From: Closterium sp. NIES-65
Lineage: Eukaryota > Streptophyta > Zygnematophyceae > Desmidiales > Closteriaceae
NCBI GenBank assembly: GCA_948144175.1
Contig: CANXME010000875.1
Span: 806,001 to 870,000, forward strand
Reading direction: 5' to 3'
Length of the DNA stretch: 64,000 nucleotides
In this document: positions 7,101 through 44,915 of the stretch, one piece after another
Position numbering within the stretch: position 1 is the first letter of the stretch
How the letters are laid out: every line of letters starts with the position of its first letter
Translations under genes and position numbers: made by a program
Notes under the pieces: model-generated
What the model was told of the DNA's origin: nothing
Seen by the model: the letters and a program-made list of their open reading frames with translations, nothing else
Databases searched by the model: none

Positions 7101-10100
7101 TTTCCTCCCCCCCCCCCCCCCTCTCTCCCGTCACTCCACATCCTCTTCCAGAGCCCCTGTTCATGGCGCTGCTTGTCTGGTATGGGTGGCATGCGGCGCA
7201 GAGATAGCAGCAGCCCTCTCTGTCATCCCTACGCGCCCAATCCCTTCTTTCCGCTTGCTCCCCCCCCCCCCCCCCCCCTCTCTATCCCACCCCTCCCCCT
7301 CCTCTTCCAGAGCCCCTCTAAACAGTGCTGCTGGTCTGGTGTGGGTGGCATGCGGCGCAGAGATAGCAGCAGCACTCTCTGTCATCCCCATGTGCCCAAT
7401 CCCTTCTTTCCGCTTGCTCCTCCCCCCCCCTCTCTATCCCACCCCTCTCCCTCCTCTTCCAGAGCCCCTCTAAACGGTGCTGCTGGTCTGGTGTGGGTGG
7501 CATGCGGCGCAGAGATAGCAGCAGCACTCTCTGTCATCCCCACGTGCCCAATCCCTTCTTTCCGCTTGCTCCCCCCCCCCCCCCCCCCCTCTCTATCCCA
7601 CCCCTCTCCCTCCTCTTCCAGAGCCCCTCTAAACGGTGCTGCTGGTCTGGTGTGGGTGGCATGCGGCGCAGAGATAGCAGCAGCACTCTCTGTCATCCCC
7701 ACGTGCCCAATCCCTTCTTTCCGCTTGCTCCCCCCCCCCCCCCCCTCTCTATCCCACCCCTCCCCCTCCTCTTCCAGAGCCCCTCTAAACGGTGCTGCTG
7801 GTCTGGTGTGGGTGGCATGCGGCGCAGAGATAGCAGCAGCAATCTCTGTCATCCCCATGTGCCCAATCCCTTCTTTCCGCTTGCTCCCCCCCCCCCCCCC
7901 CCCCCTCTCTATCCCACCCCTCTCCCTCCTCTTCCAGAGCCCCTCTAAACGGTGCTGCTGGTCTGGTGTGGGTGGCATGCGGCGCAGAGATAGCAGCAGC
8001 ACTCTCTGACATCCCCACGTGCCCAATCCCTTCTTTCCGCTTGCTCCTCCCCCCCCCTCTCTATCCCACCCCTCTCCCTCCTCTTCCAGAGCCCCTCTAA
8101 ACGGTGCTGCTGGTCTGGTGTAGGTGGCATGCGGCGCAGAGATTGCAGCAGCACTCTCTGTCATCCCCACGTGCCCAATCCCTTCTTTCCGCTTGCTCCT
8201 CCCCCCCCCTCTCTATCCCACCCCTCTCCCTCCTCTTCCAGAGCCCCTCTAAACGGTGCTGCTGGTCTGGTGTGGGTGGCATGCGGCGCAGAGATTGCAG
8301 CAGCACTCTCTGTCATCCCCACGTGCCCAATCCCTTCTTTCCGCTTGCTCCTCCCCCCCCCTCTCTATCCCACCCCTCTCCCTCCTCTTCCAGAGCCCCT
8401 CTAAACGGTGCTGCTGGTCTGGTGTGGGTGGCATGCGGCGCAGAGATTGCAGCAGCACTCTCTGTCATCCCCACGTGCCCAATCCCTTCTTTCCGCTTGC
8501 TCCTCCCCCCCCCTCTCTATCCCACCCCTCTCCCTCCTCTTCCAGAGCCCCTCTAAACGGTGCTGCTGGTCTGGTGTGGGTGGCATGCGGCGCAGAGATA
8601 GCAGCAGCACTCTCTGTCATCCCCACCTGCCCAATCCCTTCTTTCCGCTTGCTCCTCCCCCCCCTCTCTATCCCACCCCTCTCCCTCCTCTTCCAGAGCC
8701 CCTCTAAACGGTGCTGCTGGTCTGGTGTGGGTGGCATGCGGCGCAGAGATAGCAGCAGCACTCTCTGTCATCCCCACGTGCCCAATCCCTTCTTTCCGCT
8801 TGCTCCCCCACCCCCCCCCCCCCCCCCCCTCTATCCCACCCCTCTCCCTCCTCTTCCAGAGCCCCTCTAAACGGTGCTTCTGGTCGCGTGTGTGGCATGC
8901 GGCGCCAGCGTGTAGTGGGCCGGGCTGCAGCGGGGGTTGTGACTCTTAGTACGAGGAGAACATGACCCCTTACGCAGTCCGTACGGTGCTCTCACACTCT
9001 GCTCCCTCTCCCATATGATTTCACTCAGACTAGTTCATCCCCTCTCTCCCCCCTCTATCTCCCTGCTCTCCCCTACCTCAACCAGAGCCCCTGTTCATGG
9101 TGCTGGTGGTGGTGTGGGTGGCCTGCGGCACGTGTTACCCAAATCCCACTCTCTCGACCTCTGGTTTCCGCCCTTCTTTGGGAGTCACCCACATATCCTT
9201 TTTTCCTATCCATCCGGCTGTCGTAGGTTCATTTCGCAGAGGGGCGGGACCGGATGTGCCTCGAGGCGCCAGACCATGCCATAGACTTCTACCCAACGCT
9301 CGAACAGCGCGTGCAGGTGTTGTATGAGGTTATCAGCGAGACGCACATCATCAACATGATGCAACTGCGAGAGGCTATGGAAGACAAAAACATCATAGGC
9401 GCTTTTAAACGCGCCTGGACGTCATGGAAGAACGAACGTGGCTTCCACCTCAAGCGCAGAGTGCTCGCCACTTTCGGCAACAAGGTGGAAGGCCTGCGTG
9501 CAGCCGAACTGTGGATGGGCACCAAGAAGAAGCGGAAGATGTGGAAAAAATACCAACCGAGTGAGTACTTGCGTGACTGTTTTCCATCCCCTATTGACAT
9601 GTCTGCTCATGCACCCCTCGTGCATGCCCCACGTTGATGAAGCACGTACCCCCAATGCATCCCCACTTTGGCACGCGACTACATACCTGCTCTCCTCGCC
9701 CATGCTTGTAGCGCATGTGCAAACACATCCGCATGACAGCCATCCGTTGGTTCTTCTCCCACACTCCCCTTCTCCCGCCCCCCGTTTAACTCCTGCCCTC
9801 CTCTTCTCTCCCGCCACCCCCTTCTCTCCCGCCCTCCCTTCCTCTACCGCCCTCCCCTTCTCTCCCGCCCTCCCCTTCTCTCCCGCCCTCCCCCTATCTC
9901 CCGCCCACCCCTACTCTCCCGCCCTCTCGCCATTCATTCCCCCCCGCCCTCGATGTTCATCCATACCCTTTGGACAACCCTAAACCATGAGTCATGCATG
10001 ATCACGGATGTCTCATGCTTCCCCGCATTCTCATACATGCGCGCAGGAGGGAAACAGCGGGTCAGCTCGTGGGGAAACAACAGAGACGGGCTCCCGTTTG

Positions 10101-14153: not shown

Positions 14154-14304
14154 GTGTTTAAGTTATTCCGTTTTGTTTCCCGTCCCTTTTGACTTCTACC
14201 CTCCTTGCTCCTCCTCTTGTACTCTCCTTGCCCCTCCTGGCCTTCCCTTGTTCCAACGCAGTCTGACTTCATACCAGATGCGTGAGTGTGCTTGATCCAT
14301 ACTT

Positions 14305-15120
14305 GTGTTCTACCTACTCTACTTGTATTCTACCTACTCTACTTGTGTTCTACCTATTCTACTTGTGTTCTATCTAATCTACTTGTTGTGTTCTACCTAC
14401 TCTACTTGTCTTCTACCTACTCTACTTGTCTTCTACCTACTCTACTTGTCTTCTACCTACTCAACTTGTCTTCTACCTACTCTACTTGTCTTCTACCTAC
14501 TCTACTTGTGTTCTACCTACTCTACTTGTCTTCTACCTACTCTACTTGTCTTCTACCTACTCTACTTGTCTTCTGCCTACTCTACTTGTCTTCTACCTAC
14601 TCTACTTGTCTTCTACCTACTCTACTTGTCTTCTACCTACTCTACTTGTCTTCTACCAACTCTACTTGTCTTCTACCTACTCTACTTGTGTTCTACCTAC
14701 TCTACTTGTCTTCTACCTACTCTACTTGTCTTCTACCTACTCTACTTGTCTTCTACCTACTCTACTTGTCTTCTACCTACTCTACTTGTCTTCTACCTAC
14801 TCTACTTGTCTTCTACCTACTCTACTTGTCTTCTACCTACTCTACTTGTTTTCTACCTACTCTACTTGTCTTCTACCTACTCTACTTGTCTTCTACCTAC
14901 TCTACTTGTCTTCTACCTACTCTACTTGTCTTCTACCTACTCTACTTGTCTTCTACCTACTCTACTTGTCTTCTACCTACTCTACTTGTCTTCTACCTAC
15001 TCTACTTGTCTTCTACCTAATCTACTTGTCTTCTACCTACTCTACTTGTGTTCTACCTACTCTACTTGTGTTCTACCTACTCTACTTGTGTTCTACCTAC
15101 TCTACATGTCTTCTACCTAC
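14305..15120. repeat. 20-bp minisatellite, open in three frames
   Basis: About 41 copies of TTCTACCTACTCTACTTGTC, with C/G variation at the last base in some copies. The array lies just upstream of the initiator tRNA gene. All three plus-strand frames stay open for 240-310 codons because the unit has no stop in any frame. The product would be LLPTLLVFYLLYLSSTYSTC repeats. It is almost certainly not translated. Confidence 0.95.
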
Positions 15121-15333
15121 TCTCCATCTTCTTCTGCTCCTCGTCTCCTCTCTTACTCACATTAGCCCCTCGTCCCTCACGCCCATGAGATGTCTGTCCA
15201 TTGACTTCCCCCCTTCTCCCCCCTATCTTCTGTTTTCCTCACGAGAATTGACTCTACCCTACTCAGAACCTGGCTGCATTCTCTATGCTGTAGTGAAAGA
15301 GGTGGTTGAACGCAATGATCAGTCATTGAAGAT

Positions 15334-18025: not shown

Positions 18026-18279
18026 TTAGCCAAAAACCTGTATGGCGGCAAAAACAGCATCGAGGAACAAAAAGAACGGAAAAACCAGAGAGTTAGCAGG
18101 GTGACCAGAGAAGAACGCGACAGGGCGACGGAAACGGGGCGTGAGGAGAGATATAAGTGTGCACAAATCGCAACGGGGCGTGAGGAGAGATATAAGTGTG
18201 CAAAAATCGCGGAAAGAGGTAGGGTGATGGGAGGGCAGGGAAGAAGGGCGCGAAGAGCACGACGACTGCATCTTGCGAT

Positions 18280-18353
18280 AGCGACGGGAAGGGAGGGGAG
18301 AGCTCGATGGTGACGGGAAGGGAGGGGAGAGAGCGAGGGCAACGGGAAGGAAG

Positions 18354-18422
<69 letters not shown>

Positions 18423-18690
18423 CGACGGGAAGGGAGAGGAGAGAACGATGGCGACGGGAAGGAAGGGGAGAGAGAGAGGGCGACGGGAAGGGAGGAGGGA
18501 GAGCGATGGCGACGGGAAGGGAGGGGAGAGAGCGAGGTCACCAGGAAGGGAGGGGAGAGAGAGAGGGCGACGGGAAGGGAGGGGAGAGAGAGAGGGCGAC
18601 GGGAAGGGAGTGGGGAGAGAGAGGGCGACGGGAAGCGAGGGGAGGGAGCGAGGGCGACGGGAAGGGAGGGGAGAGAGAGAGGGCGATGGA
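18280..18690. repeat. GA-rich minisatellite with a (GA)n core
   Basis: Units of about 25-30 bases around GGCGACGGGAAGGGAGGGGA alternate with GA runs. The longest (GA)n is at about 18355-18420. One strand is almost pure purine. Long frames coding Gly/Arg/Glu are artefacts of composition. Confidence 0.9.
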
Positions 18691-20705
18691 TGGATTAACT
18701 GCACGAAAAAAACAAAAGAAAAAGGCTAAAATGGGTCACGGTAACGCGATAGCAGAGGGAGAACAAGACGGCAACGAGAGGACAAAGGAGATATAGTTGC
18801 AAAACGAGGGAACGAGAGGGCGAGTGAGAGGGCGACGAAGTGGAGATGCAAAGGGAGACTCGAAGGGCGACGGGAGGCCGATTCGAGGAGAGGCGACGGC
18901 TGAAGTGGAGGGGGAGAGAGGAAGGACGGTCGGAAGGCCGATTCGAGGCGACTTACCAAAATCGCGACGGAAACGAGGTGGCTCGTGGGAGAAAGGAGGG
19001 GAAGGCTGATTCGCATGCGAGTAGGGGGTGAAGATTCATACTAAGCTAATATATTACGCATGTGAGCTAAGTCCCTAGTTACGGCACGTGCCTAGGCCAG
19101 TAAAAAATAGGCGTTCTCAGCTATGCTATGCTACTTCGTGACTGAAAATCAGCTAGTTGTGAACCCAGTTCCAACTTGAACTGGAAGTTCGCCCAACGAT
19201 GGAAACCATCGCTGGACAACGGTCGTGTGGGTGCAGCATGTAGAAATGCGACGGCGTGCCGTGCGCCGAAAAAAACGTTTTGGCGGGACTCTTACCACGT
19301 TGTGGCGGAGTTCCGAGTGCGTTTGCCCCATGATCCGAGGCCTTGGATCCGTGTGTTCCGGATTCCGAAGGGCTTGGGCGCAAGGCTCCGCCGCATACGA
19401 CACGGCCAGCCGCTCACAATTCCGCGCCCACCTGACCGTGAAAAATGTGTTCCAACGAACCTGCCCTGACCCTTTGTGCCAGTGATGTTTGTCGCGAATG
19501 ACATTTTTCGCCATCGTAACTCTTTGGCCGACAAGTGACGACCGCCGGTCGCATGGCCGGTTGCGACCAACTGGTCTTCCTTGCGTCGTTATATGCTTTA
19601 ACTCGGTTTTTTTTTTTCTGCCACCTTAAAGCTGCAGCACACGTGTTCCTTTATACCTTTGATCTTATGTGTTTTATAAATAACATGAGTACAAGTGTAG
19701 CATCCTACGTTTGCTCATTGTGTTTTATAGTCATTGTTTACCAACTGTAGGTGTTCTGCACACGTGGCCATGGCAACAGTTGTTGTCAGAGTCCCAAGGC
19801 TGCAAGAGCCAATCAGCGTCTAGAAGGACCATATCCCAACTGTTGTTTTTTGGCGGGAGAATCATCCAGCCCAGGGTTGGATGACCAGATCTGGACACGG
19901 GCTTCTGTGTGTGGTGGATGGGTATGAATGGATGTTTTCGTGCTCATTTGCTTCTTTTCATTTGCATTTCATGCTCCGCAAGCTCTTTGAGATCTTTTCA
20001 TCCAGCACCTGTTAGTCCACCAGCGTAATCTTTTAAGCCTGCTTGGCCCACTGGCAGAACATTGGCGTCCTCGACATAGTGACGTAGGTCGTATAGAGTG
20101 GGTTTTTTTTTTGGGTCAGCCCGGTTAGGATAACTGCAGTCGTACTTGTTAGGTCGCATATGTAGGCGCAGACGTGTGTGGTATAATATTTTGTCGGTAG
20201 AACTGTTTGTATTTGCCCGGAACAATTGTCGTAGGTCGTCCGCTCTTGTAGGCGGACATCTTCGACGTTAGGCTTCTTTTATCGGTAAAAGTATTCGCTC
20301 CCGATCCATCATATCGTCGAACCCACGAAAGTTATGTACAAGCATAAGGGTGCCGTAGATGATTATATCCGTATAATGGTAGGAACTTATTTTCGTTGTT
20401 TCGTTGTAGAGAATTAAAGCGGTAAAACAAAGTGTGACAGAGCTATACGGTACGGGACAGTCAAGCGACCCTGTATACGCAAATTGTAGGCGCAGATATA
20501 TTTAAACGCAAGTTGTAGGCGGTGTTCGAAGACCAATGTGCAGACGTCTGAAGCACAGACTCTCTTACGCCTTCTGCGCTTAGCCCACTAAGCATTCTGC
20601 CTATGTTATCTGCACACTTGCGAATCGTTACCACCTACCGCGGCTGACACCATCCGATTCTTTCGTCTAGTCTCGGTTGCTAGCTAATAAATTAGGAATC
20701 TGTGA
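18691..20705. other. No recognisable gene; upstream region of the recombinase gene
   Basis: 18691-19020 is an A/G-rich extension of the array. 19140-19560 holds overlapping frames of under 125 codons with no known motif. 20040-20620 has several diverged copies of a TTGTAGGCG-like motif (near 20157, 20249, 20486, 20513). This may be the 5' part of the mobile element that follows, but no boundary is visible. Confidence 0.4.
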
Positions 20706-23700
20706 ATGGCCGACAGCTCGGTCCACTCTCGCCCCATGGCAGCCCAGGGCGCAGAGGATGGAGAAGAAGACCTGGAGGACGTTGAAAATACTGACCAAGA
20801 CTACGCACAGGATCGCGAGAACGATAGCGAGTTTGAGGCGACCGAGGAGGATTTGTTTCAGGGTGGTCTCTACGAACCATCCGTCCGGATTCAAGTCCAG
20901 GGGAGTGAAGAAGAGAGTGAAGGGCCGGGAGGCGATGGAGTGCGCCCACGACCCGGTGCACCCGAAGAACGGTACGAGGATGGAGATCACTCTGACGCAG
21001 AAGAGGGGGGAGAATCATCGCCAGGACGACGACGACCTCCCGATTCTGCGAGCCATGTCGAGCAGGCTGCGGCCCCCGGAAATGCGCAGCGGCAGACCGA
21101 CGTTGCGGAAAAGGAGAGCAGGATCCGGCGTTCAACAATCCCGCTTCGACTGATAGAGGCCGGGACGAGAAGGCACTATTGTTTCCACTTTCTACACTTC
21201 AAGTGGTGGGTGATAATCTTCATGGCAACTATGGTAGATGTCCCTGTGGCAGATAGCCTTGCTCCCTCTCTGCATGACGAGGTTGGATTGCATATGAGCA
21301 ATAACTTGGGAAACGATGGGTGGTCGTGCAGCTCTGACGAGTGGCAGATTCATCTGCACGGGCCGCGAATCACGGAATGGAGGCTCGGCCGATACATCGA
21401 GTATCTCTTCTGCGAAACTGACGAGCAGGCAAAGTTTTTGCGTGGAAAAATGCGGCCAGACATCGAGAAATATGTGGGGAAGGAGGCAAAGGGGTGCACG
21501 GCTTCAATGATCAAGGCAAAGATGAACGCAATGGGATGCCTTGCCAGGTGCGAGGCGAGGCTCTACGGCTTCTCCATCACACTGACCAAGGACTGGATCA
21601 AGGATGCTCGGGATTATCTCAAAGTCAAGCTGAAGGATCTGAACGACGAGCAAGTCGCGTGAGTAACATATACGTGTGCTTTCTGTTTGTGTGAATGTTG
21701 TTGTACATGGTTTACATAATTACTGTGCTATTCTATGCAGGGATGGTCGAGATCAAACCCGTGGATCAATTGGTGATCGCTATACGGGAAGCCAGTATAG
21801 GACGCTGCATCTTACTGTTCTGCGAAAAGAGCTCCTAGAGATCTGGTGGCGGACGCCTCCGTCACAAATCTCGCTTCCTCTCTGGAAGGCTCTGCAAGTC
21901 CCGATTATGATGCACCTCGGACACCAATTTCTCGGAAGAGGGTGCAGCATTCGAAAGATTCGACTTGGAAACCTGTTTGTCCGCATGACGCGGAGCACAT
22001 CACACCTCGACGACTATCTAGACGTTTTCATACTCGTCGTTGTTTCCAGGAAGTCGAAGACCAACCCCAACAACAAGCTGAGTCATCATTTTCTTGCAAG
22101 GCATAGGGACTGGCGGCTCTGCGGAATGGGCCATGTGTTCCTGTGGCTTTATTTCATCTACGACCTCGTTCCTCTGCGCTACGGCCCCGGTATCGTCGAG
22201 CCTCTCGACTTTTGTGAACCGATCTTGTGGACGAAAGCGCACCTCTTCTTTTCTTTGAAGAAGGGCGACCAGGGAAAGCAGAAGCAAGACGAGATGCACT
22301 ACAAAACGCATAACACCTGGATTAAGTGGGCCATGACGAAGGCGAGATGGATTCTGAGCAAGGTAACACATGCATTCCGCAGATCCTGAGCGCAACAACT
22401 CCATGACGACGGTTGCTCCGACAACGATATCGGCACTCTCGGCGGATGGGCGCAGGGGGAGTTGCGGAGGTGTTATGTGTTCGGCATACCGTTCAAGCCG
22501 GTTTGGCTGCTGGCAGGATTCAGCGGGGATCGTGGAGACTACTACATCGGCAGAGCCCGCGCCAAGCTTCCGCGGCATAAGGTTAAGGAGAAGGATGAGT
22601 GGTTGCAGCTCTTGGATCTCTTGAGGCTTCACATTTTCCCCTGGGTCGAAGAGGGTTGGAAGAAGGTACGTGCTAGTGTACAGTCTTCGCGTTCGTAGCT
22701 TAATTTTGAAACGCAATTATGAACCGTCCCATTTCTCCTGCATACTCGTCCCGTCAGGTCGAAGAATGGAACGCTGCGCAGACCGATCCGCTGAAGAGGC
22801 ACTATGCGGGGGCGAGGTTCCTAGACACCCTCGCGAGCATCGGACGCCTCGTTGTTGCACAGGATCTGGCCATGATGTGGGCGTTCTGCCATCAGCACGG
22901 CGTGAGAAACCCGCGGTGCAATTGCGAGAGGCATCCATATGTGCAGATGAGCCCCTTGTGCAACCACCCGCTGTTCCAAAAGTGGGCGTACCTGGTCGCT
23001 ATCTCTCACTTCCAGGGCGAGAAGCTTCGGGCAACCGGCCAAACCACCGCCAAAGCAGTAAGTGCCTGCTATTAGTGGTAGAGAGGAGTTATTCGTTCAT
23101 GCTGAGTTCTGCCGTGTTGGTTTCTGCAGGACGCTATTTTTCGCACGACCGCAGAAGAGAAGCTGCATAAGATGCACCTCACCGCCAATATGCTCAGGGA
23201 GGAGCTTGGGATTTTGAGAGGACGTGAAATGCAGTTGGCGATGGAGAACGCTGAACTGAGGGAGAAACTCGCCGCTGAGCGAGAGGACAAGGCTCGGGTC
23301 ATTGCAGAGTTCGAAGCATACAGGAGGTCTGTTGCGGCCAGGGATGACGCGGCAAACACCTCTGCAGAGATCGACGGATCGTCGAAGAGCGCGGGAACAG
23401 GAGGAAACCAGGCAACGGACGCATCCAAAGCACCAGTTGCCGTAGAAGAATTCTTCGTCGTGGTCGTTGTGTCTTGGCGCGAAGCCACCACTGTTGCTGC
23501 TGCCTGGAAAGTGTGGGTGCAGCCAAGCCTCATCATGGGCGGCCGGTCACTGCGCGAAGTCTTTGCAGAGTTCGACCGGTATAAGAAGAAGGGCAAGAAT
23601 TCCAGCTTCATCACCGCATATTCCCGGTTCGCTGTCAAAGGTACGCCCGGGATGGCTGTGGGTGCATGCGAGCGAAAGATGCGTTGCGTGCATCGTGTCA

Positions 23701-24110
23701 TGGTTTCCGTGGAGACGCTAAGAAAAGACAGCTCCGAGGCGGCGACCGCAACGGCCATTAAGCTGCTGGACGAGGTTTTACTCGTGTGCAACTTCACGGA
23801 ATTCACCAACGGCCTGGCTGTGCTGCATGAGACTCCGACCATCAAGAAACAGAAGACCGGTTCGTCGACGGAAAATAGGACCGTCAACGACTTGGCGCAA
23901 CGCAGAGTGGGCTGGCTGTTAGTCAAGAAGGGCCTTCGCGACCAGGAGTGGGCAACTTCGCTGTTTGGTGATGATGAGTGGGAGGAGATCCACAAGGAAT
24001 ACATGGCGCAGGAGAAGGCGGAAGAGGAGAAACAACGAACCGCTGCGGCGAAGAAGGCGGAACGGGAAAAGGCGAAGGGCGAAGCGTCGAAACGCAAGGA
24101 GCAGAAATGA
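20706..24110 (+). CDS. Crypton-like tyrosine recombinase with GCR1_C-like C-terminus
   Basis: Tyrosine recombinases of Crypton elements cut and join DNA through a Tyr nucleophile. The exons are 20706-21658, 21741-22362, about 22383-22665, 22758-23057 and 23130-24110, with GT-AG ends, for about 1,040 residues. After an acidic N-terminus comes the catalytic domain. GHQFLGRGCSIRKIRLGNLF carries the first Arg, K.KTNPNNKLSHHFLARHRD.RLCGMGHVFLWL is the typical Crypton middle block, and THNTW is the His motif. GGWAQGELRRCYVFGIP carries the likely Tyr. Exon 5 has a Leu/Glu coiled coil, then WREATTVAAAWKVWV and GGRSLREVFAEF, which resemble the GCR1_C DNA-binding domain, and a Lys/Glu-rich tail. Two oddities stand out: the His motif has Trp where Arg is usual, and exons 2 and 3 are one base out of frame at 22383-22400. 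The latter is a small indel or an unseen splice choice. The gene is probably recently active or recently dead. Confidence 0.72.
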
Positions 24111-25002
24111 GGGGGCATGTACCTTAAGGGTGGGGCGGTTTAGTTATTTGGGTACTTTATTCCGGTTGTACTGAATATGCACTACAGGCACTTGTCTGTC
24201 TCTGTAGAAGCCCGATTTGGGGCTTGTATGCCACCTTCTTCCCTGGACGCGCTGTTTTTCGTAGAATGTTTTTCTGGTGTATGCAATGAAGCACACATCG
24301 ATGGTATACACCGGGCGAAATTCTGCGGAGTCATGTCGTATCGTATACGATGTTATTCTATAGAGCGGCGTCGATGAATTCACTCTCACGATTGTAGATG
24401 TGTGTTCTTAGGTCACTCGGTAGACTTTTGCGTGGATTTATTCAGTCTCAGCATATGTTTCTGGGCAAAGGAGTGTCATATTCTACTAGTAGCAACGAAG
24501 ATCCTATCCATGACGGTAGATATTATCAATACGTGGGTTTTTCTGCGGTATAGTGGCGTTTCCAATTTGCCTCCAGAATTCGGCGTCGAGGAATTCAATC
24601 TCCATAGCAGAAAGGTCTGTGCATAGGAATACCGTATACGTTCTTAACAAGGTGCTCCCTAAGACAAGATGTTATGCGATTGTTTAGCCCCATACTTCTA
24701 CCTCCTCGTAGAAGCCGAGTATTAAACGTAGATTAAGTGTCGTAGAAGGCCGTCCTGTCGTCAATTATTTTATTCGCCTGGCCCTCCCTTTGATGGCGAG
24801 TTCTATCGGCTGCATTGCTAGCTCCATACGCGCCCTACAAATTTTGCTAGTGTAGTGAAGGTTTGCAGAGCAAAAATACATCTCTCATTGTATTGTATAC
24901 AACAACACCTATATTTATACACGATTAAATATAAAAAACGAAAAGGAAAATCTTTTTCTACTGCGGTACTAACAAGACCTCCAAAGAACCCGTCTGCCTC
25001 TA
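24111..25002. other. Intergenic gap between two convergent genes
   Basis: AT-rich sequence between the stop of the recombinase gene and the stop of the opposing coiled-coil gene. It must hold both 3' ends. I saw no reading frame with a known motif and no terminal repeat. Confidence 0.5.
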
Positions 25003-28000
25003 TCACTCCTGGCCGCCAGTGCCGGTGTTCTCCTCCGTCGACGCATCCTTCGTCGCGTTCCCCTTCGCGGACGATTTCTTGGTTTTCTTCTCCTTACCCG
25101 CCCCTGTTGTGGTATCCCGGCCGCCCAACTTCTTCTGCAGGACTCCGAGCCAGACGCCCTGGTGCTGGCGAAGGCCTCTTGATGCCATGCTGCATAGGAA
25201 CCAAGAGGTCACCACCTTTGCCACCACCCTCGTCATCCGCTTCGCATCCTCGGCCGCTCGCGACTCTGCCGGAAGCGCTTTCAGCAGCGCATCCGACAGG
25301 GGCAGAATCCACGCTTCCTTGTCATGCTCCTGATCTTTTACCGACCTCATCGCCTCAACCGCAACGCAAGCAACCGAGGCTGCAAGCGTCGCAAGGGCAT
25401 TGTGGACGGCAGAGGGCACATCGGCCGCAGAAGATGACGAGGCAGCCGACGAGGCGGTGGCAGCAGTGGACGATCTGGCAGCAGAAGATGCTATGGCCGT
25501 AGAAGTTCCACGTGCAGCTGTTGTTGCGCCCGTCTCCCACTGGGTCTAGTCCACATTCGTGGATGCGGCCCACATTACAGACAACGTGGCGGCAAGTCCG
25601 ATTGCGTGTTCTTCCGTCGAATAGCCGTTTTCACCCTCCACGCCTCCCACCATCTTCTGCCACGCAGTTATTCCGACACCAGCGCAGGCAGCTACCTGAA
25701 AGCCATCCCCCTGCTGCTGCCGAAGAGCCGTGTTGGTTTGAACGAGTGAGAATCTGCACAAGACACCAGTGTCGCAAGATCAGAACCATCGAACTTCGCG
25801 GGTGTTTAGAAGTTGCAACTGTCCATCACATAAACACTCACCCGTCCGGTTTGTCCAGGTGGAGTTCGTTGATGACACTCCACACCCCTGTTGGAAGCCA
25901 CGTTGTGAAGTCGAGGTCTTCCCGCCACTTGTTAATACGGTTTGGATTCATGCCGTATGCCTGCATGTCAATATCCGGGAAGTAGAGCTTCCAGCAGACT
26001 GCGACCGTGTATGCCCTCTCCCACACCGTTTTGTGAGAGCCGAGGTTCCGCTTCCGGCTGCCGACGGTCTGCTCAGACGTCCACTTCTGCAAAGCTCCCT
26101 CGCCCCGTTGAGAGAACCCGCTTCCCCTAAACGGCAGGCAGACACCCAAAGTCTTACCCTTGTCGTCCACTGCGGCGTTTTTCCTGTTGTCACACTTGTC
26201 GATCTTCATCCCTTTCTTTTCCCCTTGGATTATGGGTATCAACTCCTGTATTCCAGCTGCACGCCGTCTCTTAGCCGCATGACCCTCCGGCTCCCTGTCC
26301 TCTTGTCTAGGCCGCCTCCTGGACACCTCTACATTCCGTACAGGAACACTAGCCACGCCCTCTGCTACATTCGCCTCCCCGCTCTCAATCAACAGCAAAC
26401 TCCCCAGCCCCTCAGCTATTTCCTCCTCGGCTCCTGTCCAGGTCCCCTCCCCCTGCATGATCAAATCCTCCTCTTCCATCTCCCTTGCCAATCGTTCCGT
26501 CTCTTCAGCCATCGCCTTTGCCTTTGCCTCCAGTTGCCGCTGCTGTTCCGCGTAGGATGCAAGTCTGGCCCTCTTCTCTGCTCGGCACTGCTCCGCCTTC
26601 TGCAGGCGCTCCATCTCCTGCTGTTTCGCCCTCTGCTGCCGCTCGGCCTCTTCTGCCTCCTTCTGCGCTTCCTCCTTCTGCAGGCGCTCCATCTCCTGCT
26701 GTTTCGTTCTATGCTGCCGCTCGGCCTCCTCTGCCTCCTTCTTCTGCGCTTCCTCCTTCTGCAGGCGCTCCATCTCCTGCTGTTTCGCCCTCTGCTGCCG
26801 CTCCGCCTCCTCTGCCTCCTTCTGTGCTTCCTCCTTCTGCAGGCGCTCCATCTCCTGCTGTTTCGCCCTCTGCTGCCGCTCGGCCTCCTCTGCCTCCTTC
26901 TTCTGCGCTTCCTCCTTCTGCAGGCGCTCCATCTCCTGCTGTTTCGCTCTCTGCTGCCGCTCGGCCTCCTCTACCTCCTTCTTATGCGCTTCCTCCTTCT
27001 GCAGGCGCTCCATTTCCTGCTGATTCGCCCGCTGCTGCCGCTCGGCCTCCTCTGCCTCCTTCTTCTGCGTCTCCTCCTTCTGCAGGCGGTCCAATTCCTG
27101 CTGTTTCGCCCTCTGACGCCGCTCTACCTCCTCTGCCTCCTTCCTCTGCCTCTCCTCCTGCTGTTTCTCCCTCTCCTGCCTCTCGGCCTCCTCTGCATCT
27201 TTCCGCTGCGCCTTTTCCTTCTGCAGGAGCGCCATCTCTTGCTGTTTCTCCCTCTCCACCCGCTTTGCTTCCTCTGCCTCCTTCCTCTGCGCATCCTCCT
27301 TCTGTCGCCGATCTCCCTCCGTTGCCTTCCTACCCTGCTCCTCCTTTTGCCGCCGCTCTGCGTCCAATCTCAGAACCATTGACAGCCGCTTTTCCACCTC
27401 ACTTAGCATCCCCTCCTTCCACCCCTTAATCCCCGTCTTCATCTCCTTCACAGCCTCCATCACTTCCTTCATTCCCGCCTCCACCTCCTTCTGCCGTCGC
27501 TCTTCCTCCTGATGTTTGTTCTTCCTCCGCCGCTCTGTGGCCTCTACATCCTTCCTCTTCACCTCCTCCTCCTTCCGCCATTGCTCGTCCAGTTGTTTCC
27601 TCTTGTGTCTCTCCTCGTCGTCCGCCACTTGTTTCCTCTTCGCGTCCTGCTGTTGTCGCCGCTCCGCGTCCACTTGCCTCTCCTTCTTCTGCCGCTCGGA
27701 TTCTTCTTGCAAAACCGCGCTCAACCTCCCCACAATCTGGTTTACCATCCCATCCTTCATCTCCTTCATTTCTGCCTTCATCTCCTTCATCATCGCCTCC
27801 TTCATCTCCTTCATTCCCTCTCTCATCTCCTTCTGCCGACGCGCTTCCTCCTGCTGTTGTTCCTTCTTCCGTCTCTCTGCGGCGTCTGCTTCCTTCCTCG
27901 TGGCCTTCTGCCTCCGCTCCTCGTCCTGCAGTCTATCCCTGTTCCGCCGCTCAGAGTCTTCTCTCAGAACCTCTCTCAACCTCTCTTCCACCCTCTTTAA

Positions 28001-31000
28001 CGTGCCCTCCGCCATCCCCCCTCCCGACTGGCGAACCTGATCACTCATCCTTACGATACTCTCCTGCAAGTTGGAGAGTCTCGTGTCCACCTCCTCGCGA
28101 AACCTGGCCGCCGTTTCAGCTTGGCGCCGCCGTTCCTCGTTTCCATGGCGGACTTCTTCCAGGTTGGCCAGGGCGTCGCGACAGTAATGGACGGTCAGAT
28201 CGGCCACGTCGCGACTGATGCTGCTGTTGCGGGCCGCCAAGTTGCAGAACGTCTGCGTCACCATTCGGGCTAAGAGCGTCAGACGACGCGTTACCTCTGC
28301 CGGGCTTATGTCCCAGCTTTCGGCCTCGACGAACCTGTCACCTTGTTCGACCAGGACTGTACTCGTCCGATGCAGCATCCGCCGTATTGCCGTCTCTGCC
28401 TCGACCCACTCTACCTGCCAAAACGCTTCTGCCACCCCGCCTTGGCCGAGATTCCTCTCCACTGCTCTCTGGTGAAGGGTGGGCCGCCTCTGCCTGTTGA
28501 GATCCAGTGTATCCCTAGGCGCCCCATCGTCTGCCACCCTCCATGGCCCCTCTACCCCGGTTCCTGGTCCCCGCGTCGGACTTCCTCCCAAAAATATCCG
28601 GACTGCCGGATGTACCGTATCCTCCTCATTCTGCTCCTCTTCTGTTTCCAGCGCATCTCCCTCGTAGTGCCCCACTCCAGCCTCCGGGACGACACGAACC
28701 TCCTCCATAGTATTTTGACGCCTTGTCTCTGCCATGCTCTGCATCTCTCGGTATGCAAATACCTGCGACGCTGCCTCCTCGTTATGCTGCCCCTCTTCCT
28801 CTGCGATGATGTGCCCCTCAGCACCCGCCGTCTCCCGTCCCTCTGTCTGTACCATTTTATTCCCATCTGAACCGTCCTCTCCATCTGGCTTCCTACGTGC
28901 GTCTGCCTCAGCCTGCTTCTGCTCCTCGGCCTCTGCCATCTTCTGCGCCTCACCCTCCGCCTTCTTCTGTGCCTCTACAATAGCCTTCTTCCGCGCTTCT
29001 GCCCGAGCCAGTTGTAGTGCCTCTTCCGCAGCCTGTTTCTGCTCCTCTGCCTCCGCCTTCTGCCGCGCCGCTGCTTCTGCCTTATTCCGAGCCTCTCCTT
29101 CCTTATGTGCGTCTGCCTCCTCCATATGCAGCGCCGCTGCCTTATCCTTCTCCCTCGCCGCTGCCTCTGATTCCTTCTGCGCCTCTGCCTCAACCATGTT
29201 CGGCGCCGCACCCTCCTCCTTCTGCAGCGCCGCTGCCTCTGATTCCTTCTGCGCCTCTGCCTCAACCATGTTCGGCGCCGCACCCTCCTCCTTCTGCAGC
29301 GCCGCTGCCTCTGATGCCTTCTGCGCCTCTGCCTCAACCATCTTCGGCGCCGCACCCTCCTCCTTCTGCTACGCCGCTGCCTCTGATTCCTTCTGCGCCT
29401 CTGCCTCAACCATCTTCGGCGCCGCACCCTCCTCCTTCTGCTGCGCCGCTGCCTCTGATTCCTTCTGCGCCTCTGCCTCAACCATCCTGGGCGCCGCACC
29501 CTCATCCTTCTGCTGCGCTGCTGCCGCTGATTCCTTATGTGCGTCTGCCTCATCATTCTGCTGCGCCGCTGCCTCATCCTTCTGGCTCGCCATTGCCTCT
29601 GATTCCTTCTGCGCCACTGCCTCCACTACCATCAGCTCGACTGCCTCCGACGTCAGCTCTGCTGCTGCACCCGCTTCTTTACGCGCGACTGCCTCCGCAC
29701 CCTTGACCGCTTCTGCACCCACCTTCTGCTGCGCCGCAGACTCTGCTTCCTTTGGCGCCCCGTCCTCTGCCGTAAGTGCCGCCTCTGCATCGACGAACCG
29801 ATGGGCCGCATCCTCTGCATTCTGGTGCGCCTCTACCTCCACCATCTTATGAGCCTTAGCACGAGCGTTGCTCTCCTCCTTCTTTTTCGCCTCTCCCGAA
29901 TTCTCTGGCACGTCGACGTCCCCTCTCCGGGCCTCTTCAGCCGCCTTCCGCTTTAGGCTGGGCAAGCGAACTTTCACGTATCCCCTATCCTCCTCGATAT
30001 GCTGCCGCACATTGCTGGCGAGCTCCTCTCCTGCCTCTCCCACGTGTGCCCTTGCAGCGGCTCGTGCCCCACGCTCCCATGCTTCACGTATGTCTCCAGT
30101 TCCCGGGAAAGAGACGGTAGGATCGGTGTCGCCATCACTGCGCCGTTGCATCTCTTCAGCCCGTCTACTCTTGGCTTCTGCTTCGCCCATCCGCTTTTCA
30201 TCAGCCACCTTCCTCCACTGCTCCTCTGCCTGTTCGACCTGACTTGGCAGCTGTGGATCTTCTACACCCTCCTCGCCTTCATCTGCTACACTTGCCAAGT
30301 CGGTCTCCGTCCGTGCTTCGCGTTCCCGCGGCCTCCTAACCCGATCAGCAAACCTGAGCTGCCTAACTCCAGACCTATCACGCTCGTCCGCAGTGGCTGA
30401 CCTTGATGTCGGGCCACTCAGTAGTGCATCCCCCGATGCAGGTCGGCGGGAATATGAAATAAACCCAACTCTTGGATTTGCGTCCCGGTTTGCGGCAGGT
30501 ACGTCTATCTGTCCCTCTACCGCTTCGGATATGTTCTGTGCGGGTGCGCTCTCTACCACTCGAGCACAGTGGGTCGTCATGACTGCATCCGGGGCGGGAC
30601 GGAGCTGGACTCCTTGCAGGTCGAAGAAGGCCCTGCAGGTCGACTCCAGCATACTCCGAATTTCTTTCGCGCTGTTTTTCCCCTTCCCTAAGACCATCAT
30701 CGGCTCTACAGACTGAATCGCCATGACATCCCCCCATTTGTCCAGCAACTTGCTGAACACATGGGTAACGTGCAGCCCGGAACCCACTTGCCTCTGTCCC
30801 TGAACCTTGTTGATCTGCAACATGTGCGTGAAAAGGTGGTTGTCAGACACTCCCGTTACTTTTTACAAGCTTAATATCATACAACGCTTAAATCATAAAA
30901 ATAGAGCCTCCTTCCTTACCCTGCCTTCCTCCATCTAGGCGAGCCCTCAAATCTTTCTGCACCGCTTCGGCGTGGCTGCCAGAGACCCTGCGACCTCGGC

Positions 31001-31766
31001 TGTATTCCACATCTAGTTGTCGGATAAGCCAGCTGCAGGGCAAGGGGGTCGCAAATAATCAATAACATGCGTCCATACAAACCGCACATCTGATTAAGGA
31101 GTGATACTTACTCGAACACCTCCTTGGCATGCTCGCTGTGGCGATGGGTTGGGATTGCAGATTTAGGGTCGAAGTGTAGCAGACGCGTACGGTACTCTCC
31201 GCGGGGATGTGCTAACAAATCTTGCGGGTTCATCAGCACCATGAGACTGATCGCCGTCGAGTGAACAACAGGGACTCTGCGGTACATGGAAGTTTGGATT
31301 AGCAAGATAGCTGGTGTCATCGACAAACGTTGCGGATCCATGTCAGGAAACTCACTCTGATATCATGGGTATTAAAACCATCTGGTAGTCCAACAGCGAC
31401 CAATGTTCGCTGCCACAACTGGGGACACGCGGGACGGCAGACCTCAAACGCCGATGCTCGGTAGGAGCCAGAATCTTTATGTCCTTGCGAACGCGAGGAT
31501 CCCCAATCTTGTCCTTGGCAACCTCCCTGCATCCAAGCCGACATGTCGCAGAGGTAAGAAGATAGCAGGTGCCTGTCTAAAAAAACAAGGGTTCAACGTG
31601 ACGATGAAGTCAGCGTGCGTTACAAACCGCGATTGGATACATACACAAGGCCGAAAAGTAACAACGCCTCGTTCCACTCTTCCTGACGAGCGATTAACCT
31701 TTCATAAGACTCCCGCCCTAGTCGTACCGACAATCCGCAGCCGTCTGTGATTAGCTGGGACGACAT
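25003..31766 (-). CDS. Ulp1-like fold fused to a giant coiled coil, mobile-element partner gene
   Basis: Six exons on the minus strand join in phase: 31766-31645, 31526-31356, 31276-31112, 31032-30920, 30849-25842 and 25753-25003, about 2,110 residues. The start is ATG at 31766 (MSSQLITDG). The first 200 or so residues follow the Ulp1 order. First comes RQEEWNEALLLFGL, then MVLIPMISEVPVVHSTAISL at the His region. LLHFDPKS sits at the Asp region and VQGQRQVGSGLHV at the Gln/Cys region, with Ser where the catalytic Cys is expected. A long coiled coil follows, with repeats of KMVEAEAQKESEAAA and of QQRAKQQEMERLQKEEAQKK. A C-terminal part around VWERAYTVAVCWKLYFPDID is unknown to me. Two in-frame TAG codons occur, at 29369-29371 (where sister repeats have CAG or CTG) and at 25546-25548. 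The gene converges on the recombinase gene. It may be an accessory protein of the same element, which is inference. The acceptor of exon 5 is weak. Confidence 0.6.
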
Positions 31767-32689
31767 CGCGTAAGTATGCCAGAAGATGGCAGGTAACTAA
31801 ACGGTTACTACCATACACTGTCCGCCTGCAGGATTAGAGGCCGACACTAGAATGAGAGGGAAGCTTGTGAGGCTAGTTGTGGAACCTCGACTCAGATTGG
31901 AATGGCGAGAATGACGTTGAGCTTTGGTGCACCCACCCTGATCCCAACTTCTGCTTCGCTGGTAGAATTGGTTGTGCTCTGTCCTCAAAGAAGGTGGGAA
32001 AGGCTTTGCTACAAACGCCAGGCGTAGTAAGAATTTTCTGCCCCCTGGCTCAAAATATTAGGCTTCTCACCATTTCCCTTCGAACATCTGCGAACTATTC
32101 TTTGCATACTTCTGCAATGATTTACCTATTTGTCGCCAGATTGTTCTCCTAAATGTTTTACTTCAGTTGCTGGTTGGTTGATTGCCAACCTTATATGCCA
32201 TGTTAGCATATTGCATGTTCGGCGGTGCATTGCATGGTCTCAGCTTTGCCTCGACCTAGTACGAAATGGTGACGGGCAGCCCCTAAAAAAAAAGAATGGT
32301 GTCCTGTGACAGGTTAATGACAGGCTGCCACGTATAGCTATCCCATCCGCATGGCTCCCTCCGCAACCTGGAAATAGAGCTGTCTCTGCGACCTGTCACA
32401 CGTGTCAGAAACCGAATGACACCCTATATCCGAGATTACCGCTATAGGGGTACTCGTGTAGCACGTATAGTACTAGTTTTTGTAACCCATAAAACAAACA
32501 CAAGCATGAACTTTGCATGATTAGCACACCCAATTCTATAACGGGTAATCCTATAAGTGTGAGATGAGTGCCCTATCATTAGCACCCGTATAACAGTGGC
32601 ATTTGAATACAAAACAAATGTTGTACATTTCACCAAAGTGATCTGCTCCCGCCTGCAGAGGAGAGAGTGAAAAACATACTACACGTCTA
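31767..32689. other. No recognisable gene; upstream of the coiled-coil gene
   Basis: This stretch should hold the promoter of the minus-strand gene. Reading frames are short. Near 32300-32420 there are scattered inverted pieces (GGTGTC, GTGACAGG and their complements) that do not form a clear terminal repeat. Confidence 0.4.
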
Positions 32690-34870
32690 CGAAATGAGGT
32701 GAATTTTAGGTGGGGGTCTGGAATATGTGTGGTGAGAGTCCCCTATAAAAATCAGCTCATTTTCTCAAGGAGAAGTGGGTCATTTCAAATGAAACCTGAT
32801 TCCAGGCAATTCTGCATAGAATTCTGCAGACTGCTGCACAACAAGGCTTAAAAAACATATCAAACCTTGGGTAAATGAGATGAATTTCCGGTGGGGGTCT
32901 TGAATATGTGTGGTGAGAGTCCCCTATAAACATCAGCTCATTTGCTCAAGGCGAAGTGGGTGATTTCAAATGAAACCTGATTCCAGGCAATTCCGCACAG
33001 AATTCTGCAGACTGGTGCACAACAAGGCTTACAAAACATATCAAACCTTGGGTAAATGAGATGCATTTCAGGTGGGGGTCTTGAATATGTGTGGTGAGAA
33101 TCCCCTATAAAAATCAGCTCATTTGCTCAAGGCGAAGTGGGTGATTTCTATTGAAACCTGATTCCAGGCAATTCTGCACAGAATTCTGCAGACTGCTGCA
33201 CAACAAGGCTTAAAAAACATATCAAACCTTGGGTAAATGAGGTGAATTTCAGGTGGGGGTCTGAAATATCTGTGTTGAGAGTCCCCTATGAAAATCAGCT
33301 CCTTTTCTCAAGGAGAAGTGGGTGATTTCAAATGAAACCTGATTCCAGGCAATTCTGCACAGAATTCTGCAGACTGCTGCACAGCAAGGCTTAAAACACA
33401 TATCAAACCTTGGGCAAATGAAGTGAATTTCATGTGGGGGTCTGGAATATGTGTTTTTAGAGTCCCCTATAAAAATCAGCTCATTTGCTCAAGGCGAATA
33501 GAGTGTTCTCAATTGAAACCTGATTCTAGGCAATTCTGCACAGAATTCTGCAGACTGCTGCACAACAAGGCTTTAAAAACATATCAAACCTTGGGTAAAT
33601 GAGGTGAATTTCAGGTGGGGGTCTGAAATATCTGTGTTGAGAGTCCCCTATGAAAATCAGCTCCTTTTCTCAAGGAGAAGTGGGTGATTTCAAATGAAAC
33701 CTGATTCCAGGCAATTCTGCACAGAATTCTGCAGACTGCTGCACAGCAAGGCTTAAAACACATATCAAACCTTGGGCAAATGAGGTGAATTTCATGTGGG
33801 GGTCTGGAATATGTGTTTTTAGAGTCCCCTATAAAAATCAGCTCATTTGCTCAAGGAGAATAGAGTGTTCTCAATTGAAACCTGATTCTAGGCAATTCTG
33901 CACAGAATTCTGCAGACTGCTGCACAACAAGGCTTTAAAAACATATCAAACCTTGGGTAAATGAGGTGAATTTCAAGTGGAGGTCTGGAATATGTGTGTT
34001 AAGAGGCCCTTTATAACAATCAGCTCATTTTCTCAAGGAGAAGTGGGTGATTTCAATTGAAACCTGATTCCAGGCAATTCTGCACAGAATTCTGCAGACT
34101 GCTGCACAAGAAGGCTTAAAAAACCTATCAAACCTTGGGTAAATGAGGTGAATTTCAGATGGGGGTCTTGAATATGTGTGGTGAGAGTCCCCTATAAAAA
34201 TCAGCTCATTTTCTCAAGGAGAAGTGGGTGATTACAATTGAAACCTGATTCCAGGCAATTCTGCACAGAATTCTGCAGACTGCTTCACAACAAGGCTTTA
34301 AAAACCTATCAAACCTTGGGTAAATGAGATGAATTTCAGGTGGGAGTCTGGAATGTGTGTGGTGAGAGTCCCCTTTAAAAATCAGCTCATTTGCTCAAGG
34401 AGAAGTGGGTGATTTTAAATGAAACCTGATTCCGGGCAATTCTGCATAGAATTCTGCAGACTGCTGCACAACAAGGCTTAAAACACATATCAAACCTTGG
34501 GTAAATGAGGTGAATTTCATGTGGAGGTCTGGAATGTGTGTGGTGAGTGTCCCCTATAAAAATCAGCTCATTTTCTCAAGGAGAAGTGGGTGATTTCAAT
34601 TGAAACCTGATTCCAGGCAATTCTGCATAGAATTCTGCAGACTGCTGCACAGCAAGGCTTAAAACACATATCAAACCTTGGGCAAATGAGGTGAATTTCA
34701 TGTGGGGGTCTGGAATATGTGTGGTGAGAGTCCCCTATAAAAATCAGCTCATTTTCTCAAAGAGAGGTGGGTGATTTCAATTGAAACCTAAATCCAGGCA
34801 TTTCTGTACAGATTTCTGCACCCGCCTACAGAATATAACATGAAAGGCATGGCAAACCTTGATGAAATGA
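32690..34870. repeat. 181-bp satellite array
   Basis: About twelve monomers. The motif TGGGGGTCT or a close variant recurs near 32711, 32892, 33073, 33254, 33434, 33616, 33797, 33978, 34160, 34341, 34522 and 34703, so the period is 180-182. Each monomer carries AATTCTGCAGACTGCTGCAC and TCAAACCTTGGG. Diverged monomers go on to about 35330. The length is close to one nucleosome repeat, as in many centromeric satellites, but there is no proof of a centromere. Confidence 0.95.
33236..33961. repeat. Higher-order dimer of the 181-bp satellite, present twice
   Basis: A two-monomer block of about 363 bp at 33236-33598 is repeated almost exactly at 33599-33961. The first monomer of each has TCTGAAATATCTGTGTTGAG and CAGCTCCTTTTCTC; the second has ATGTGTTTTTAGAGTCC and ATAGAGTGTTCTC. 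No other monomer in the array shows these combinations, so the block was copied as a unit. Confidence 0.85.
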
Positions 34871-36140
34871 AGTGAAAACTGGATAGGGATCAGGACTAGG
34901 TGTTATGACAGTGCCCTATCAAAATGGGCTCATTGGCCCAAGGAGAAGTAGGGTGATTTCACCAGACACATCACAGCAGGCAACTCAACACTAACTTCCT
35001 TGCAAGAAAAAGTCCACCAAATCAGTTTGCATATAGCTGAAAATGTTCAGGGGGGCTGGAACAGGTGTCATAACACTAAAAATGCTAAAAAAAAATGGTC
35101 ACCACATAACACATGTGTGTGATGCCCAGAGAATGACTTTACATGTGCTGTGAGCAATCTTAGTTGACCCAAAAGTGACAAAATGGAACAAATTTGACAA
35201 AATAACAAACTCATGCCCGCTGGTAGAGGATATCAAGGAGATGTTGGAAATCCATGTTTGTGTGCAAATGACCAACAAATTATGGAGTTATGAGCCAAAC
35301 CATATAGAATGTTGACTTAGCCATTTTGACATTCTGCTTGTCAGAATTACACCGAAGTGTCAACAACAAAGTTTATCTACAAATACTGTACAACAGTCGT
35401 TGCGACGTTGCTTTCGTGCGACCGTCGATAATCCAAACCGGTAGTGTAACCACTCTTGTGCCCATTTCGTTGCGCCATCAGGTGGTTTGGATTTTGTAAG
35501 ATCCAACACCCTTTTGCGCCGAATCCGAGTCAAATCCGAGTAAAATCGTCTCGCCACGGGCAAAATGGAGTTTCGCCAAAAAAAAATGAATCCCGGTCGA
35601 AGTAGAGGATCCGAGTGCTGCTTCCGCCTTTGGCCCGCCCTTCCCCCGTCAGGTGGTTTGGATTTCTAGGGATCCAGAAAATTTCACGGAGGCGTGAGCC
35701 AATCAAATGAGTTCCCTCTTCCTACTCCTTTTGTTTCGAACAGTGTTGTTTCCGCCGAACTCATCGCAGCGATTTCAAGCTGGGACGGCCTTCACAATTT
35801 TATATTTCGGTTTTAATCTGATTTTATCTCTCACTGCATGCTACAGTGGCGCAAGTGGCTCGTCCATCTCACATCTAAGGGTGTTGTTTGTCGCCGACAC
35901 CCAACACAATGTGTTGATTAATTCAGTATAGGTAACCAATTTTGAGCACAAAATGTTAAAAAAAAATCCATTTGTATTAGACAGAGGCACCTGAGCTGCT
36001 TCTTTTCCCAGCATGTGCAGGCCTGTGCGCTGGAGGAACTAGTGCCAGTCTGAATGATCCCTCAAGCTGCAACCCTTCCCCCTCCACGACAACCCCAAAA
36101 TGCTTCCATTCCTTGCATCTCCTCCTCGAGTACTAATGGA
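34871..36140. other. Decayed satellite edge, then non-coding sequence
   Basis: To about 35330 the sequence still shows weak satellite likeness (TGAAATGAAGTGAA, CAAGGAGAAGTAGGGTGATTTCACC). From 35340 to 36140 I see no gene. A 17-base direct repeat TCAGGTGGTTTGGATTT occurs near 35478 and 35649, each followed within 12 bases by a GATCCA. Confidence 0.5.
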
Positions 36141-43054: not shown

Positions 43055-44059
43055 TGTGGAGATTAACTCTACAACGGTAGTGAGCTAGACTACAGGGGTT
43101 GGCACGAACTACTAGAGGTGATCTTAGCTTTGCTTAGTTCCTTAGTGTTTGCACATTCACGGAAGAATTCGGCAAGAGTTTCCACTAGCAAAGTTGGAAT
43201 TCCAGAATCATACAAGAAGCAATGACAACAATGACTACATCAGGCACCTAGCAACCCTGCAGCTAGCGTGGTCGACCGCCAACGCAGCTCGGTCGACCGC
43301 CTGCCAGCATTGCGTAGAGGAGCCGCGCCAGCATTGCAGAAGGGCGACCTGCCAACAAAGCAGGTCGACGGCGTGCCCCGTAAAACACAGCAGTGCGCGC
43401 ACTCGCAGGTGTGCGCAGACGATTGGCCCGACTTGCCTCGTTGGGCATCCGTCGGCTGTTGTCTGCGCCTGACGAGCCACATCGACTTCGGGATACCAGC
43501 CTGCGCCATCGCGATCTCGACGGCGTTCGCGTGCCTCCGCATATTTCGTCGAGCAGGTTACCCGGTCGACCTGGTCGACCCCTGGTGCTCTAGTCGACTC
43601 CCAGGTGCCTCCCGTCAACCACTGGGTCCATCTGGTCGACCACCGGGCGCTCTTGGTCGACCACACCTCCCGTCAAGCTACCCCTTGGTCGACGGACCCC
43701 TTCCGTCGACCAAAACTGCTCCGTCGACCTCCCGGTCGAACTGCAGTTCGACAGGATGCTCCGTTGACCTCCCGGTCGAGCTGCAGTTCGACGGGATGCT
43801 CCATAGGCCTCCCCGTCGAACTGTAGGTCGACGGATTGCTTCGTCGACCTCCCGGACGGCTCACCCGTCGCCTAGGCCAGTCAGGTGCAGTTGTCGAGCA
43901 TCCTGGTCGACAGCAACACCACAACGGTCCGCTGCAGCTCAACGTAACCTGTCGAGCAGCTATCCCACTGTGAGCGGTCGGCTGCTACTCCCGTACATCC
44001 GACCAAGTTGTCGGCGTTGCCCAAGCGAGGGCAGGGCCAACACTCCATTCCCGTTAACA
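43055..44059 (-). repeat. 5' LTR of the minus-strand copia element
   Basis: Partner of the LTR at 36647-37651, with the same ends and length and about 97.5% identity by eye. The primer-binding site abuts it at 43054. The target duplication AGAAT follows at 44060-44064. Confidence 0.93.
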
Positions 44060-44064
44060 AGAAT

Positions 44065-44915
44065 GAGAGCATGGAAGCATGGGAGCATGGTAGCATGGGA
44101 GCATGGGAGCATGGGAGCATAGGAGCATGGGAGCATGGGAGCAGCGAGCATGGGAGCATGGGAGCAGCGAGCATGGGAGCATGGGAGCATGGGAGCATGG
44201 GAGCATAGGAGCATGGGAGCATGGGAGCATGGGAGCATGGGAGCATGGAAGCATGGGAGCATGGGAGCATGGGAGCATAGGATCATGGGAGCATGGGAGC
44301 ATGGGAGCATAGGAGCATGGGAGCTTGGGAGCATGGGAGCATGGGAGCATGGGAGCATAGGATCATGGGAGCATGGGAGCACCGAGCATAGGAGCATGGG
44401 AGCATGGGAGCATAGGAGCATGGGAGCATGGGAGCATGGGAGCATGGGAGCATGGGAGCATGGGAGCATAGGAGCATGGGAGCATGGGAGCATGGGAGCA
44501 TGGGAGCATGGAAGCATGGGAGCATGGGAGCATGGGAGCATGGGAGCAGCGAGCATAGGAGCATGGGAGCATGGGAGCATGGGAGCATGGGAGCATAGGA
44601 GCATGGGAGCATGGGAGCATGGGAGCATGGGAGCATGGGAGCATAGGAGCATGGGAGCATGGGAGCATGGGAGCATGGGAGCATGGAAGCATGGGAGCAT
44701 GGGAGCATGGGAGCATGGGAGCATGGGAGCATAGGATCATGGGAGCATGGGAGCATGGGAACATAGGAGCATGGGAGCATGGGAGCAGCGAGCATGGGAG
44801 CATGGGAGCATGGGAGCATAGGAGCATGGGAGCATGGGAGCATTGGAGCATGGAAGCATGGAAGCATGGGAGCATGGGAGCATGGGAGCAGCGAGCATGG
44901 GAGCATGGGAGCAAT
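44065..44915. repeat. AGCATGGG array, right block
   Basis: About 100 copies of an 8-bp unit, with variants AGCATAGG and AGCAGCG spread through it. Long frames on both strands (MGAWEHGS; LPCSHAPM) arise because 8 bases times 3 gives an 8-residue repeat without stops. They are not genes. Confidence 0.95.

Follow-up and report, generated by a model that had tools for sequence, protein, structure and literature searches.

A probable 16.4-kb Crypton-type transposon with two convergent genes in Closterium sp. NIES-65

We analysed a 64,000-nucleotide stretch of the genome of the streptophyte alga Closterium sp. NIES-65 (the window; assembly GCA_948144175.1, contig CANXME010000875.1, positions 806,001 to 870,000 of the forward strand). 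Two convergent genes, encoding a tyrosine recombinase and a partner protein with a long charged middle, lie there inside what is probably a Crypton-type transposon. The recombinase gene occupies positions 20706–24110 of the plus strand in four exons (20706–21658, 21741–22665, 22758–23057 and 23130–24110; splice sites inferred). It contains the Crypton middle block (ARHRD..LCGMGHVFLWL) quoted in an initial annotation of the locus, and it matches the Pfam family NDC10_II with an E value of 3.6e-10. The window copy belongs to family A; recombinases of two further families match NDC10_II with E values of 3.6e-10 (family C) and 2.4e-07 (family B). When exon 2 is aligned across families A, B and C, residues R66, K106, H210, R213, W236 and Y245, which we take by eye to be the catalytic set, are invariant. 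In the window copy, which has decayed, exon 2 contains one in-frame stop. This exon is stop-free in 41 of the 54 long recombinase matches (≥92% identity) among the matches listed, and its ratio of nonsynonymous to synonymous polymorphism (pN/pS) is 0.45 in a small sample of eight distinct copies. The GCR1_C-like tail that had also been proposed did not hold up: the resemblance is weak and seen by eye only, and GCR1_C gave no Pfam match in the recombinase of family A (E up to 1) or of families B and C (E up to 10).

The partner gene runs on the minus strand from 31766 to about 25003 in six exons (approximately 31766–31647, 31576–31356, 31276–31112, 31032–30920, 30813–25842 and 25753–25003), the fifth of which is long. 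The reading frames, together with relatives in families B, C and D, served to infer its splice sites, and the resulting model agrees with the convergent six-exon gene described earlier. Two regions are conserved: an N-terminal region (30615–31766, minus strand), comprising exons 1–4 and the start of exon 5 and aligned across four families (alignment A4), and a C-terminal module of ~105 residues (25850–26165, minus strand), aligned from six divergent copies (alignment A6). Between them, a repetitive charged region (26290–29880, minus strand) carries 24/72-bp and 81-bp DNA repeats; judged from its composition, it is probably a coiled coil, as had been claimed. Exon 5 of the sister copy C2194 has an open reading frame of 1,681 codons, and of 1,280 residues in its middle, 64% are Glu, Lys, Arg, Gln or Ala. 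The window copy of this gene is decayed as well, with a frame-shifting 11-bp deletion in exon 4 and two in-frame stops, in exons 5 and 6. With the window copy, one copy with a deletion and one that does not match the sequence pattern excluded, pN/pS is 0.63 over the first 160 codons of exon 5 and 0.44 over the first 100 (five of eight copies, a small sample). A further partner family, at L126 (G000:C1757:157000-164900), has an open exon of 1,977 codons.

Both genes sit within a larger repeated unit, which extends beyond them by 1.4 kb on the left and 3.9 kb on the right. The left end, at 19285, is the same start base in 9 of 10 fetched copies, the tenth (C2188) carrying a different sequence there, and it was found in 14 of 20 further stretches, the remaining 6 of which did not include the end. 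The right end, at 35670, is present in 6 of 10 fetched stretches (one copy is truncated and three stretches are too short to reach it) and in all 20 stretches picked from right-end matches; all 40 scored right-end matches reach this position. The copies agree from 19285 and to 35670, and the element, read on the plus strand, therefore measures 16,386 bp (19285–35670). It begins and ends with GG (19285–19286 and 35669–35670, plus strand). Flanking DNA differs from copy to copy except in duplicated contigs, which are included in our counts (flanks are common to C874/C1780, C2194/C2074, C1757/C2261 and C387/C1928). Two 25-bp direct repeats near the right end (35470–35494 and 35641–35665, spanning 35470–35665 of the plus strand) are possible recombinase binding sites.

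Empty sites, which the initial annotation had suggested as a means of locating the ends, support these boundaries. For 17 insertions with both flanks known, the joined flanks served as queries against the 874-Mb genome; the best 40 of 509 candidates were scored, and 16 of 44 matches were fetched for reading. Nine of the 17 insertions (C946, C1028, C2194, C1540, C340, C874, C481, C1794 and C1923) have clear empty sites, each of which reads left flank, single GG, right flank. Filled sites thus have a GG at both ends where empty sites have one, and insertion occurs at GG dinucleotides. Across the 17, no target duplication beyond GG rises above chance: one exact repeat of 3 bp occurs, with 0.25 expected, and none of 2 bp or of 4–6 bp. 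In the first six copies, the right flanks appeared to resemble the left end of the element; across 23 copies, all that was left of this was a purine bias at the first base, and we rejected the idea.

The same core appears where copies adjoin. On contig C1566, a head-to-tail pair of family-A copies is separated by a single GG, a junction compatible with an extrachromosomal circle intermediate. Family C forms head-to-tail tandems at three scored places, two in C752 (one of them the query) and one in C2019, with the junction sequence TCTT-CCC-GATTATAT. The core of this family is CC and is less sharp than that of family A (located for 9 of 12 left ends and all 8 right ends): the one or two bases after the left CC are variable, and one right end is off by a base. 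The tandem unit in C752 measures ~9.5 kb. A further tandem, at C2261, is suggested solely by spacing.

The NDC10_II match and the GG pattern fit recombination by the encoded recombinase. We propose that this enzyme would excise the element by recombining its two terminal GGs. The resulting circle, with a single GG at the junction, would then reintegrate into a GG of the genome or, where tandems arise, into the end of a copy already in place. GG at the ends, as in the family-A ends that were read, would also be expected of a DDE-type element that duplicates a fixed 2-bp GG and relies on a different transposase. We consider this alternative very improbable, given that a comparison by eye of the terminal 80 bases revealed no terminal inverted repeats, that no DDE gene was found in the element pieces scanned with Pfam, that head-to-tail copies share a single GG and that the catalytic residues of the recombinase are kept. 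The window also holds no inverted pair of ≥40 nucleotides.

To follow the two genes through the genome, we scored the best candidates of each search (128 of 568 for the recombinase, 150 of 378 for the partner and 150 of 333 for the C-terminal module), so that copy numbers are minimum values and the lack of a mate or of an empty site is weak evidence. DNA searches with the gene starts gave 41 scored matches among 73 candidates for the recombinase and 40 among 68 for the partner, and long matches were 95–100% identical; protein searches gave at least 129 and at least 210 matches, respectively. Three second pieces among 129 recombinase matches and three among 150 module matches were left out of the counts. 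The partner count comprises 59 exon-5 matches, with two divergent ones (C2325 and C1017:320596) and two second pieces left out. Among listed family-A recombinases (≥82% identity), 53 of 61 have a convergent partner exon 5 within 40 kb. The C-terminal module lies within 15 kb of 48 of 61 listed recombinases in family A, 2 of 6 in family B and 54 of 59 in family C, with a median gap of 3.2 kb in family A and 2.4 kb in family C. The pair predicted by the initial annotation therefore recurs, in family A as well as in a family whose recombinase is 44–47% (~46%) and whose partner N-terminus is 25–30% identical to that of family A. Of the eight family-A recombinases without exon 5 within 40 kb, three have the module within 15 kb, and two more (83% identical copies) have a convergent module at 16 and 22 kb. 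Conversely, 6 of the 59 listed partner exons lack a listed recombinase, and 43 of 147 modules are unpaired with one.

That the two genes travel together as a single mobile element is strongly supported. The copies have sharp ends in common, empty sites match them and the pairing recurs in a divergent family; because of this, we regard the locus as one two-gene element, which bears out the earlier suggestion of a unit of at least 11 kb. The opposite case, in which the genes are unrelated and just happen to adjoin (as nested transposons, or as a transposon next to a host gene), has practically no chance of being correct: after the genome searches nothing favours it, and it is contradicted by the pairing counts and by ends common to the copies. 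By the terms of the initial annotation, its reading would have been refuted had the genes been found apart or had the partner been a single-copy host gene. Neither gene is single-copy; three listed family-A recombinases have no listed partner, and six partner exons no listed recombinase.

Taken together, we assign a probability of roughly 85% to the reading that window positions 19285–35670 are a 16.4-kb transposon of the Crypton type, with a tyrosine-recombinase gene and a second gene convergent to it, moving by GG-to-GG excision and reintegration as outlined above. The element has recently been active in the genome of the Closterium sp. NIES-65 lineage. Six matches to the small Rubisco subunit in this genome exceed the curated cut-off, one of them resembling the streptophyte form by eye, and they put the host in the green lineage.

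Several observations weigh against this reading. Three family-A recombinases show no listed sign of a partner and five family-C recombinases have no module within 15 kb; a single copy may thus do without the partner gene, which could act in trans. In one family-B copy (L044:3781–4702), the recombinase and the C-terminal module share a strand, and no N-terminal part of the partner was found in the 13.8 kb read. Among the 17 insertions, C1701 is ambiguous, C2129 is partly covered and six have no empty site among the best 40 of 509 candidates. No circle intermediate was observed. Single-sequence fold models, with mean predicted local distance difference test (pLDDT) scores of 36 and 42, gave no usable fold. 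Finally, the 2-bp core is shorter than the 4–6-bp repeats reported for Cryptons.

The partner pieces that were scanned yielded nothing above chance in Pfam and, in PDB, no match better than E 1.1, and the C-terminal module had neither a Pfam match nor a significant PDB match. An AP2/ERF assignment for this module was tried and rejected (no Pfam match, no significant PDB match, an hhalign probability of 0.3% and a score no better than 28–30 shuffled alignments). In viral contigs, 47 pattern matches were found, none of them a relative. The partner thus has a conserved region at either end and a long stretch of charged repeats between them. Our favoured, though tentative, reading is that it may be an accessory scaffold, which would bind the element DNA or the recombinase and help to synapse the ends or to choose targets.

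Another view is that the partner is a captured gene which the element carries as cargo, as in Starships, and which takes no part in transposition. The recombinase sits near one end of the element and faces inwards, an arrangement also seen in Starships, and an extra gene lies within the element; Starships are described as cargo carriers. Against this, a homologous partner has been retained, convergent in families A and C and in one family-B copy, across recombinase families that are about 46–55% identical, unlike variable cargo. We therefore consider the cargo explanation unlikely. A more far-reaching reading is a separate streptophyte Crypton lineage with two-protein transposition, in which a GG-core recombinase could not do without its giant coiled-coil partner, itself the founder of a new protein family, the two having been convergent since before the families diverged; we regard this as a real possibility, at somewhat less than even odds.

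The initial annotation had likened the first 200 residues of the partner to the Ulp1 (C48) proteases. A working or derived Ulp1/C48 SUMO protease could clip or stabilize the recombinase, and there is a precedent in oomycete Cryptons that bear a C48 gene (PMC3212892). The order of blocks, placed by eye (a hydrophobic strand, HFD, then GSG followed by a hydrophobic stretch), also resembles that of C48. The assignment nonetheless failed every test. The partner pieces gave no C48 match in Pfam or by PDB profile, the latter yielding one unrelated chance-level match (E 1.2); hhalign of the N-terminus to Ulp1/SENP1 returned a probability of 0.5%, and a separate run scored no better than 28–30 shuffled alignments. 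The would-be nucleophile, placed by eye, is serine in families A, B and D and alanine in family C, and the would-be histidine, likewise placed by eye, is not conserved. An HWSLL block considered as the histidine motif was discarded: it reads HRSLL in 6 of 8 copies and lies upstream of a better candidate. A protease role is accordingly improbable, and the N-terminus is a pseudo-protease if it is of C48 descent at all.

Cryptons are known from fungi, animals and stramenopiles, with 4–6-bp terminal repeats where such repeats are present, and Cbf2/Ndc10 is derived from CryptonF (PMC3212892). In 2011, Kojima and Jurka described oomycete elements of the CryptonF and CryptonS groups that also encode a C48 peptidase (PMC3212892). 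A Crypton with two genes is therefore not without precedent, and the earlier remark that the layout was undescribed requires correction: what appears to be new here is the partner family, the 16.4-kb size, the 2-bp core and the green-lineage host. The C48-bearing CryptonF elements (CryptonF-2_PS and related, in oomycetes; PMC3212892) resemble the present element in their Cbf2/Ndc10-related recombinase, additional protein, short terminal direct repeats and lack of terminal inverted repeats. In contrast, most of those elements have a 6-bp core, whereas here the core is 2 bp, the partner is not detectably C48, GCR1_C is undetected, the element measures 16.4 kb and the green-lineage host carries dozens of close copies. 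CryptonS (oomycetes and a diatom; PMC3212892) likewise has a conserved C-terminal region without GCR1_C and, in some elements, an additional protein, but its terminal repeats are 5 or 6 bp long, and host and partner family differ.

Tyrosine-recombinase transposons are described as lacking inverted repeats and target duplications, and the MCi-2 elements combine a partial Crypton recombinase with Fanzor1 (PMC3627910). MCi-2 is thus similar in pairing a Crypton-like recombinase with a second protein; in contrast to the present element, it has 11–12-bp target duplications, its Crypton status was left open by its authors, and no Fanzor match came up in the pieces scanned here. Cryptons have been termed rare, and none is named from green plants in the available part of that source (PMC11630846). 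A literature search on Cryptons in green algae, streptophytes and plants, with Repbase and most subscription journals outside its reach, found among titles and abstract openings no two-gene Crypton of the green lineage. Fungal Starships are also large elements mobilized by a tyrosine recombinase, but their cargo is variable where the partner here is constant. DUF3435, the Starship recombinase domain, was not found: up to E 1, the family-A recombinase matched only NDC10_II and, weakly, one unrelated Pfam family (E 0.014). DIRS and Ngaro retrotransposons have a tyrosine recombinase in common with the present element, but no reverse transcriptase was found in the element pieces scanned with Pfam.

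Dozens of close copies, together with exact ends, empty sites that match them and copies arranged in tandem, make the integration reaction of this element directly testable, and the conservation of the partner points to a second protein that a Crypton may employ.

Within the element, a 181-bp tandem satellite occupies positions 32563–35035 (no strand assigned), with ~13 units in the window copy and from 7 to at least 50 units across nine other stretches read (also L034). Borne by a mobile element, it is a possible seed of satellite DNA. At C343, an insertion duplicated ~11 bp corresponding to window positions 31874–31884. Another repeat, at window positions 1–573, is also found in or beside several element copies (L018, L027, L032 and L036). 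Unrelated tandem repeats crowd the window at 7107–9110, 14206–15200, 18211–18740 and 44020–44900, with units of ~152, 20, 29 and 8 bp.

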